A stretch of 36,960 nucleotides of DNA from Acidobacteriota bacterium (GTDB taxonomy: Bacteria; Acidobacteriota; Vicinamibacteria; Vicinamibacterales; 2-12-FULL-66-21). Positions 178 to 29,038 of the stretch are shown here, piece after piece. Below the pieces are notes generated by a model. That model did no database searches. It had not been told where the DNA came from and saw only the letters and a list, made by a program, of their open reading frames with translations. Where the stretch lies: assembly GCA_003223835.1 (NCBI GenBank), contig QHWR01000067.1:1-36960 (forward strand), given 5' to 3'. The first letter of the stretch is position 1; each line of letters starts with the position of its first letter. The position numbers and the translations under genes are program-made.

Positions 178-605
178 TCAGCGTTTTCTTTTCAGCGCCG
201 CCAGGAATTCAGCCGGCGTCTCCACCCTGATCCCGTGGCGGAGCGCCGCCAGAAAGTGGCGGCGGTTGTCCGTCACGATCACATCGGCCCTTGCGGCGCG
301 CGCGATTTCGGCGATGTGGGCGTCGTAGATGCGTCCACCGGCGATCGCGTCCTGCGCGGCGGCCTTCAGCAGTCCCGCGCGATCCGCCGCCGGCAAGTCG
401 TGTACGGCCATCCTCGCAAAGACTTCCTGCTCGACCAGCGCGACGGCGTCCGCGGGCGCGAGCCTGAACTCCGGCGGCAGCCGTGTCGCGACCGAAAAGA
501 ATTCCAGACAGCAGTGCCAGGCGGTCGCCGGTGCGCTGGCGCGCTCTGCGGCCCGAAGTCGACGAGGCCGGCGAGCAGCACGCTCGTGTCGAGGAAGACG
601 CTCAC
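178..605 (-). pseudogene. vapC: PIN-domain VapC-like toxin, interrupted by a frameshift
   Basis: GTG at 605 starts MSVFLDTSVLLAGLVDFGPQ..., then the homologous reading jumps frame to ...WHCCLEFFSVATRLPPEFRLAPADAVALVEQEVFARMAVHDLPAADR...GGRIYDAHIAEIARAARADVIVTDNRRHF...; PIN motifs (DTSVLL, IYDAHIAEIAR, DVIVTDNRRHF) lie in two frames. Confidence 0.8.
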
Positions 606-856
606 GGCCAGCGGTTCCGCTCTTCTTCCACGAGCGACGCGATGTCGATGGCGGGCCGCGCCTCGACGGGGGCGGTCGGTCTCGCGACCAGCCGGCGTCC
701 GACTTTGATCAGCTTCGGGCCGGCCGCGACACGCTCCAGCCGGACGGCGCCATCATCGAGCCAGACCTCGATCTCGACTCCCGGCGCGAGCCCGGCGCGC
801 TCGCGGATCGCCGCGGGAATGACGAGCCGTCCCGCCTTGTCGATGGTAGTACGCAT
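602..856 (-). CDS. vapB: AbrB/MazE-fold antitoxin (VapB-like)
   Basis: MRTTIDKAGRLVIPAAIRERAGLAPGVEIEVWLDDGAVRLERV is a SpoVT/AbrB-type N-terminus; 4-nt overlap with the toxin start. Confidence 0.88.
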   Translation of the reverse strand: MRTTIDKAGRLVIPAAIRERAGLAPGVEIEVWLDDGAVRLERVAAGPKLIKVGRRLVARPTAPVEARPAIDIASLVEEERNRWP

Positions 857-13149: not shown

Positions 13150-14262
13150 CTACTCCAGGCGGACGGGCGCGCCGTCCGCGAGCTTCTGGACGCCCGACAC
13201 GATGACCCGGTCGCCGGGCTTGAGTCCTCCCTGGACGACGTAGTCGTTGCCGAGGACGGCGCCGACCTGGACGGGACGCTGGCGCGCGACGGGTCCCTGG
13301 CCGCCCGGCTCCGCGACGAAGCAGAAATACTGGCCGCTGACGCGCGTGACGGCGACAATCGGAATCGTCAATCCCGGGACGGTTCGCCACACGACCCTCG
13401 CACGGACGAACTGCTGGACCTTCACCGACGGCGGCGTGTCACGAAGAGCCGCCTTTGCGAGCACCGTCTGCGTCGCCGGATCCACGCGTGGCGCGACGAA
13501 CGTGATCTGGTTGGTCGCGACCACCTTGCCCTCGTCGTCGAGAATCTGGACGGGCAGCCCCGCTTTCAGCTGCGGCGCGCGTTCGAGCGGTACCTGGATG
13601 TAGGCCTCGAGCCCGCGCTTGTCGTCGATCGTCGTAATGATCGTCGAGGTCGTCACGCGATCTCCCTGGCGGACCGGGATGTCGCCGACGACGCCGGCCT
13701 GTGGGGCGGTCACGCGATAGTACCGAAGCTCGACCTGACCTTCGCGCACTTGGGCGTTGAGCGACGCGAGGCTCGCCTGAGCGGTCTCGAGCTGATGCTG
13801 CGCCTCATCGTACTCGTTGCGGCTAATCGCGCCCGCGTCGAGGAGCGCCTTGAGCCGCTGGACCTGTCCGCGCCAGTACGTCACGTCCGCTTCGCGCGCC
13901 GCGCGGTTCGACTCGGTGCTCCGCACGTTCGCCGCCTGTTTCTCGGGGTCGATTTGCATGAGCGGCGTGCCCACGCGCACGAGGTCGCCCGACTTGACGA
14001 GGATGCGGTTGACGACCCCCTCCACCTGCGGTTGGACGGTCGTCGAGTGCAGCGAGCGGACCGTCGCGATGAAGTCGGATGTGTCCGCGATCGGCCGCAG
14101 CTCGAGCGTGAGCACCTTGACGCCGGCCGCGGGCGCGCCTCCCTGGCGTCCGGCGCCCTGTCCTTGAGATGCCGCGCCGCCGCTCCCCCCGCACGCCGCG
14201 GCTGCCGCGAGCGCGACGGCGAGGGGCAGCCACGCATAACGAGCACGAATGTGGTCCAACAT
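13150..14262 (-). CDS. RND efflux periplasmic adaptor (membrane fusion protein), lipoprotein
   Basis: MLDHIRARYAWLPLAVALAAAAACGGSGG (lipobox-like); GVVNRILVKSGDLVRVGTPLMQIDPEKQAANVRSTES...YYRVTAPQAGVVGDIPVRQGDRV. Confidence 0.92.
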   Translation of the reverse strand: MLDHIRARYAWLPLAVALAAAAACGGSGGAASQGQGAGRQGGAPAAGVKVLTLELRPIADTSDFIATVRSLHSTTVQPQVEGVVNRILVKSGDLVRVGTPLMQIDPEKQAANVRSTESNRAAREADVTYWRGQVQRLKALLDAGAISRNEYDEAQHQLETAQASLASLNAQVREGQVELRYYRVTAPQAGVVGDIPVRQGDRVTTSTIITTIDDKRGLEAYIQVPLERAPQLKAGLPVQILDDEGKVVATNQITFVAPRVDPATQTVLAKAALRDTPPSVKVQQFVRARVVWRTVPGLTIPIVAVTRVSGQYFCFVAEPGGQGPVARQRPVQVGAVLGNDYVVQGGLKPGDRVIVSGVQKLADGAPVRLE

Positions 14263-15292: not shown

Positions 15293-16594
15293 ATGAGGGT
15301 CCTCGTTGTCGGCGGCGGAGGCCGCGAGCACGCGCTCGCCTGGAAGCTCGCCGGCGAACGGAACACCGACGTCGTGTGCGCGCCGGGCAACGCCGGCATC
15401 GCGCGCAGCGTGCGTACGGGGGCGGTGGACGTCGCCGATCCGTCCGCGGTCGTCGCGCTCGCGCGCCGCGAGCGGATCGATCTCACCGTCGTCGGCCCGG
15501 AGCTGCCGCTCGATCGCGGCGTCGTCGATTGTTTTCGCGGCGAGGGCCTGCGGATCTTCGGGCCGTCGCGCGGCGCGGCGCAGCTCGAGTGCAGCAAGGT
15601 GTTCGCGAAGCGGTTCATGGCGCGCCACGGGGTCCCGACCGCGCGCTATCGTGCCTGCGCGCGTGCCGACGAAGCGCACGGCGTCGTCGCGTCCGGCGAA
15701 TTCGGCTTTCCGGTCGTCGTCAAGGCCGACGGTCTCGCGGCGGGCAAAGGCGTCGTCGTCGCGGCGGATCGCGCGGAGGCGGACGCGGCGATCCGCGCGT
15801 CGATGGAGGAGCGCTGTTTCGGCGACGCCGGCGCGCGCGTCGTGATCGAAGAGTGCCTCGTCGGTCCGGAGGCGTCGTTCTTCGCGTTGTGCGACGGGCG
15901 CGCGGCGATCCCGCTGACGTCCGCGCAGGATCATAAACGCATTTTCGACGGCGACCGTGGGCCGAACACCGGCGGAATGGGCGCGTTCGCGCCGAGCCCG
16001 CTGGTCGATGCGGCCATGCAGGCCCGCGTCATGCGCGAGATCGTCGAGCCGGTCCTTCGCGGCATGCGCGCGGACGGTCACGAGTATCGAGGCTTTCTGT
16101 ACGCGGGCCTGATGCTGACGTGCAACGGCCCGAAGGTGATCGAATTCAACGTGCGGTTCGGCGATCCCGAAGCGCAAGTGGTGCTCCCGCTCATCGACGG
16201 CGAGCTGGGACCGGTGCTCGCCGCCGCCGCCGATGGCGACGCGTCGGGCACAACGGTCGCGTTCAAGAACGACGTGCGCGTCGGGGTCGTCCTGGCGTCC
16301 GCCGGATATCCGGGCGCCGTGAAGACAGGACTCCCCATCGAGGGTCTCGAAGCGGCGGAGCGCATCGCCGGCACGATCGTCTTTCATTCCGGCACGTCGA
16401 TGAAGGAAGATCGCGTCGTGACCGCCGGCGGCCGCGTGCTGACCGTCGTCGCCGGCGGGGCGAGCTATGGCGAAGCGATCGATCGTGCGTACCGCGCGGT
16501 CGGGAAAATCCGCTTCGACGGGATGCAGTATCGTCGCGACATCGGCGCCACGGTGGTAAACCAAAATGCACAAGGAGCCTCAGGGTCGCCCTGA
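15293..16594 (+). CDS. purD: Phosphoribosylamine--glycine ligase
   Basis: MRVLVVGGGGREHALAWKLA...VVKADGLAAGKGVVVA...HKRIFDGDRGPNTGGMGAFAPSP...FNVRFGDPEAQVVLP. Confidence 0.97.
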   Translation: MRVLVVGGGGREHALAWKLAGERNTDVVCAPGNAGIARSVRTGAVDVADPSAVVALARRERIDLTVVGPELPLDRGVVDCFRGEGLRIFGPSRGAAQLECSKVFAKRFMARHGVPTARYRACARADEAHGVVASGEFGFPVVVKADGLAAGKGVVVAADRAEADAAIRASMEERCFGDAGARVVIEECLVGPEASFFALCDGRAAIPLTSAQDHKRIFDGDRGPNTGGMGAFAPSPLVDAAMQARVMREIVEPVLRGMRADGHEYRGFLYAGLMLTCNGPKVIEFNVRFGDPEAQVVLPLIDGELGPVLAAAADGDASGTTVAFKNDVRVGVVLASAGYPGAVKTGLPIEGLEAAERIAGTIVFHSGTSMKEDRVVTAGGRVLTVVAGGASYGEAIDRAYRAVGKIRFDGMQYRRDIGATVVNQNAQGASGSP

Positions 16595-27627: not shown

Positions 27628-29038
27628 ATGCCGCAAGGTAAGGTCACAGGGGTTGCAAGCACGCGGGCGCCCGCCGGGCACGAGCAGCAGGACAAGTACC
27701 GAGAAGCCTGCGGAGTATTCGGGATTTTTGGCAACCCCGAGGCGGCCAACCTGACGTACCTCGGCCTGTACGCGTTGCAGCACCGTGGCCAGGAGAGCGC
27801 CGGCATCGTGAGCGCCGACGGCGAGAAGATGCACCTGTCGCGCGCGATGGGCCACGTCGCGGACGCGTTCGACGAGCGAACGCTCGAGGGGCTCCCCGGC
27901 CATCTCGCGATCGGGCACACGCGGTATTCCACCGCGGGCGACAGCAACCTGCTCAACGCCCAGCCGATCCTCATCGACTGCGCGCACGGCCAGATTGCGA
28001 TCGCGCACAACGGCAATCTCGTCAACGCGCGCGAGCTGCGCGACCAGCTCGTCCGCGACGGGTCCATTTTTCAGACGAGCAGCGACACTGAGGTCGTGCT
28101 CCATCTGTATGCGCGCTCCCGCGAGCACACGGTCGAGGACGCGCTGATCGAGTCGATCTCGGAAGTCCGCGGCGCGTTTTCGTTCGTGCTCCTCACGAAG
28201 GATCGTCTGATCGCCGCGCGCGATCCGCACGGCTTTCGGCCGCTCGCGCTCGGACGGCTCGGCGATGCGCACATCGTCTGCTCGGAGACGTGCGCGCTCG
28301 ATCTCATCGGCGCGACGTACGTCCGCGACGTCGAGCCCGGCGAGCTGCTCGTCATCGGCGAGGGAGGCGTGCGATCGCTGCGTCCGTTTCCGGCGGCGCC
28401 CCTCGCCCATTGCATCTTCGAGCATGTATACCGAGCTCGGGCGCGTTCTCGCGCGCGAGTCGGCGCCGGAAGCTGACGTCGTGTCGCCGATTCCGGATTC
28501 CGGCGTCTGCGCGGCCAGCGGCTTTGCCGAGGTCTCCGGGATCCCGATGCAGTTCGGGTTGATCCGCAACCACTACATCGGGCGGACGTTCATCCAGCCG
28601 CAGCAGGCGATCCGCCATTTCAGCGTGCGGGTGAAGCTGAATCCGGTGCGGAGCATCCTCGAAGGCAAGCGCGTCGTCCTCGTGGACGACTCCATCGTGC
28701 GCGGCACGACCAGCCGCAAGATCGTGAAGATGGTCAAGGCCGCGGGGGCGCGCGAAGTTCACCTGCGCATCAGTTGCCCGCCGACGCTGTCGCCGTGCTA
28801 CTACGGCGTCGACACGCCCGACCGGAACGAGCTCATCGCGGCGAACCACACGCTCGAGGAAATCCGTCAGTTCATCGGCGCCGACAGCCTGGCATATCTC
28901 AGCCTCGGCGGTCTGATGTCGGCCGTCAAGCCGGACGGCGGCTCGTACTGCTCGTCATGTTACACAGGCGTCTATCCCGTCGCGTTTCCGCGCGACGAAC
29001 GCGCGTACCTGCAGCTCGCGTTGAAAGTCGTCGAATAG
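27628..29038 (+). pseudogene. purF: Amidophosphoribosyltransferase, interrupted: ORF1 27628-28476 (glutaminase domain) and +1-frame ORF2 from about 28424 to 29038 (PRTase domain)
   Basis: ORF1 EACGVFGIFGNPEAANLTYLGLYALQHRGQESAGIV...[15 protein letters not shown]...CIFEHVY then nonsense [17 protein letters not shown]2 [33 protein letters not shown]...[15 protein letters not shown]...[10 protein letters not shown]. Frame breaks between CIFEHVY and MYTELG. Confidence 0.9.

Follow-up and report, generated by a model that had tools for sequence, protein, structure and literature searches.

The purF gene of the DNA stretch analysed here (36,960 nucleotides, hereafter the window) is broken by a frameshift at a joint where 53 nt, including a conserved block, are absent, and this break is in all likelihood a local misassembly or gap-closing artefact of the draft genome. 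The purF of the organism itself is very probably ordinary and intact. Two contig ends, or the two sides of a closed scaffold gap, would have been joined directly, with 53 genuine nucleotides left out and the frame shifted in consequence; the software step responsible was presumably one that closed a gap, or joined ends, after setting the gap size too low. We favor an artefact because scars of this kind also mark several further housekeeping genes of the draft. The window is one contig (C175) of a draft genome that totals 5.75 Mb over 400 contigs, with a completeness of 93% and a contamination of 2.8%. It has many short drop-outs along its contigs that put essential genes out of frame, and neither purine auxotrophy nor split enzymes should be called from it.

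The first open reading frame (ORF1, 27628-28476, 282 aa, plus strand) reads as PurF up to the motif CIFEHVY, whose tyrosine codon occupies 28429-28431. This 5' part (27628-28431) comprises the propeptide, the catalytic Cys28 (Cys1 of the mature protein) and the glutaminase domain. Past the joint, ORF1 continues as an out-of-frame tail lacking homology (28432-28476, plus strand) that ends in TGA. The PurF homology is taken up again one frame over, at the ACC codon of position 28430, reads TELGR and ends at 29038; this 3' part (28430-29038, plus strand) encodes the phosphoribosyltransferase (PRTase) domain together with all but one of the four Fe-S cysteines, and was delimited by tblastn, by the family model and by PDB 1ao0 (residues 261-452). 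The joint is thus reduced to the letters TACC (28429-28432, plus strand), with no Ns. Frames, family model and relatives all bear out the sequence-only reading in that purF is broken by a frameshift with the loss of a conserved block. That reading placed the resumption of homology at an ATG TAT (28424), which actually matches nothing in PurF.

The size of the loss comes from the comparison with intact relatives, which judged by sequence are metagenome-derived Acidobacteria, some of them Vicinamibacteria. In nine intact relatives from the same family a block of 51 nt, encoding FARPDSYVFG[KRE]SV[NS][ED][VI]R, lies between the two parts. Since the two parts of the window gene share the AC of TACC (28430-28431), 53 nt are absent, that is, 17 codons plus 2 nt. 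The flanking parts have kept their length, with 726 nt for the N-terminal part (counted from the catalytic Cys) and 606 nt for the C-terminal part, lengths that the window gene shares with every one of the nine intact relatives measured. The block, recognizable by F[AS]RPDS, has a length of exactly 17 residues at all 113 loci that could be read, and its F, its RPDS and its closing R are invariant in all 86 distinct sequences; it is absent at the window joint. A loss of length 2 modulo 3 had been predicted, which 53 nt fits, but the lengths offered as examples (44 or 47 nt) do not agree with the 17 residues of the relatives. Neither did a proposed collapse of a direct repeat (EHVY/SMYT) hold, as the relatives read SVNEVR-TELG there and only a possible microhomology of 2-3 nt is seen. 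No direct repeat was found around the joint, and the apparent MYT arises from the last codons of EHVY in a different frame, so the collapse was rejected. A hairpin around the joint (arms 28381-28406 and 28453-28478, 77% complementary, fold z-score -3.0) was also considered and discarded as a special feature, many stronger inverted repeats being found in the window.

By its domains the gene is a purF. The N-terminal cysteine nucleophile lies in EACGVFGIFG and, with the glutaminase domain, matches positions 1-247 of the TIGR01134 model with 286 bits; the PRTase domain with its PRPP-binding motif matches positions 257-432 with 223 bits. What is missing is a single continuous frame above the 350-bit cut-off of the model (the gene lies in two frames, each half below it) and the F[AS]RPDS block between the domains. 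The Fe-S ligands of the Bacillus subtilis enzyme are cysteines 236, 382, 437 and 440. The cysteines of CIFEHVY, SPCYYG and CSSC in the window align to the ligand positions of that protein (1ao0), giving the full set of four. The ligand of ORF1 had been sought in CSETCALD, whose cysteines are residues 191 and 195; it is rather the cysteine of CIFEHVY (mature residue 235) that aligns approximately to Cys236. A search of the genome for a second purF, as the sequence-only reading had proposed, left the window copy as the only one, the other weak matches looking like different glutamine amidotransferases.

The retention of both domains and of all four presumed Fe-S cysteines, together with an ATG that happens to sit at the joint, would be expected if PurF were naturally split into a glutaminase chain and a PRTase chain, the second one starting from the ATG at 28424 within ORF1. 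We give this idea almost no credence. None of the roughly 160 class genomes surveyed is split at this place, and the window gene lacks the invariant FxRPDS block. Upstream of 28424 there is no Shine-Dalgarno-like sequence, and ATG TAT merely stems from the final EHVY codons in a different frame. A split kept in relatives, with each part translatable, was not what we found, and of the outcomes put forward beforehand (artefact, auxotroph or split enzyme) the last is left without support, while the first gained it from the scars described below. The literature on split purF and on the numbering of the Fe-S ligands yielded nothing usable.

A way to weigh the break against natural variation is to look at purF throughout the class. 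The gene was found in 171 of 193 genomes, nearly always as a single frame that spans some 470 aa or more. Alignment with the relatives' genes showed the frame intact and the block present at the site where the window gene breaks. Two follow-up surveys, each covering 80 genomes, brought up no further case of a short loss that shifts the frame of purF; the window stands alone. About a dozen of the follow-up genomes have contig edges or N gaps within purF. Approximately 5 of 14 such edges or gaps fall within 35 residues of the block, a clustering judged by eye that is merely suggestive and that we did not retain. One relative (G190, contig C20, 11936-13321) has a purF with one in-frame TAG stop codon and otherwise of full length.

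A genuine and very recent deletion of 53 nt, by slippage or end joining at the 2-3 nt of possible microhomology (TAC/ACC), would leave the lineage a purine auxotroph, and locally it would be indistinguishable from an artefact. The clean joint, which holds no Ns, speaks in its favor. The purF halves themselves speak against a genuine deletion. Their pN/pS values are similar to those of intact relatives, indicating normal purifying selection, and no relaxed selection was found on either half in this comparison, so there is no sign of purF decay. Seven other purine genes of the genome (purB, purQ, purL, purM, purN, purD and purC) are intact. In the window, purD (15293-16594), purB, purQ, purL, purF, purM and purN all lie on the plus strand between 15293 and 33663. 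On the other side of the balance purH is broken too, as a decaying pathway would predict. Its coding sequence is divided between two frames (C277:59674-59994 and 59982-61178); some 20 residues (58-69 nt) are absent and the frame shifts. The purH of relatives is mostly in one frame. Still, the same scars appear in nuoM, in the gene for ribosomal protein L9 and in other genes unrelated to purines, and we consider a true recent deletion in purF quite unlikely. That short, recent deletions truly deprived the lineage of both purF and purH function, and that it now depends on the purines of its neighbors, we regard as very unlikely.

The scars of the rest of the draft carry most of the weight of the argument. 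Stretches of the window genome and of four relatives were compared by tblastn with each other's ORFs, keeping the best-scoring frame hits. Over the roughly 85 kb of coding DNA that could be compared, the window genome contains eight frame breaks, each of which apparently cost 19-58 nt. They are located at C175:528, in purF and on contig C277 at 13.6, 26.3, 51.8, 54.0, 60.0 and 74.2 kb, with apparent losses of 40, 53, 23, 38, 19, 22, 58 and 31 nt. A single reference genome underlies each of the calls at C175:528, C277:13.6 kb and C277:54.0 kb, and two or more references show the remaining ones. The same survey found none in 79 kb of a complete relative assembled as a single contig (G014) and none in 55 kb of G010, one in 73 kb of the draft G007 and two in 100 kb of the draft G003, so that this type of scar is rarer in the related drafts. 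In the purL of G003 (contig C50, near 68264) 56 nt are lost with a frameshift, like in the window purF.

The scarred genes include, besides purF and purH, unrelated essential ones. At C277:74241-74262 the frame of the ribosomal protein L9 gene is interrupted, with about 31 nt apparently lost. In nuoM (NADH dehydrogenase subunit M), an exact copy of 140 nt (C277:26222-26361) of the sequence 1.6 kb upstream (C277:24596-24735) replaces the gene's own sequence; the source appears to be nuoL, from our reading of its protein sequence. The copy resembles a gap filled by the wrong paralogue and is clearly a misassembly. An exact duplicate of this kind was sought at the purF joint and none was seen in the DNA compared. 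The break at C277:13587-13634 holds a run of six Ns at 13615, and is therefore a scaffold gap of the wrong size, too short. Many N runs of odd length (9-111 nt) are found on other contigs of the window genome. A probable second scar of the window itself affects a PIN-like gene (184-635, minus strand), broken at 528-531 with the apparent loss of about 40 nt. The presence of scars in ribosomal protein L9 and nuoM makes natural loss less likely, and we infer that the purF joint is one more scar of the type seen across this assembly.

Metagenomic drafts mix strains, and extra purF fragments do exist in some relatives (G103 and G164, for instance), which raises the alternative that the consensus took up the sequence of a minor strain in which the deletion is real. 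Such a mixture would leave both the N-gap scar and the exact nuoL copy in nuoM unexplained, and we find it scarcely believable. An assembly artefact agrees with both the purF site being intact in close relatives and the lack of scars in the surveyed part of the single-contig genome.

In its architecture the window gene is of the B. subtilis, 4Fe-4S type of PurF (TIGR01134; PDB 1ao0 and 1gph), with a propeptide followed by the catalytic cysteine, glutaminase and PRTase domains, the PRPP motif and the four Fe-S cysteines. It differs from this type in the 53 nt (F[AS]RPDS block) that it lacks and, as a consequence, in its broken frame. Many bacterial pseudogenes have been attributed to assembly errors (PMC11017572, Cooley and Wright, 2024). 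The window purF resembles the spurious pseudogenes of that article in that the gene is broken in the assembly, the relatives are intact and there are many events per draft. The article's abstract deals with frameshifts and internal stops in general, whereas the events of the window genome are losses of 19-58 nt.
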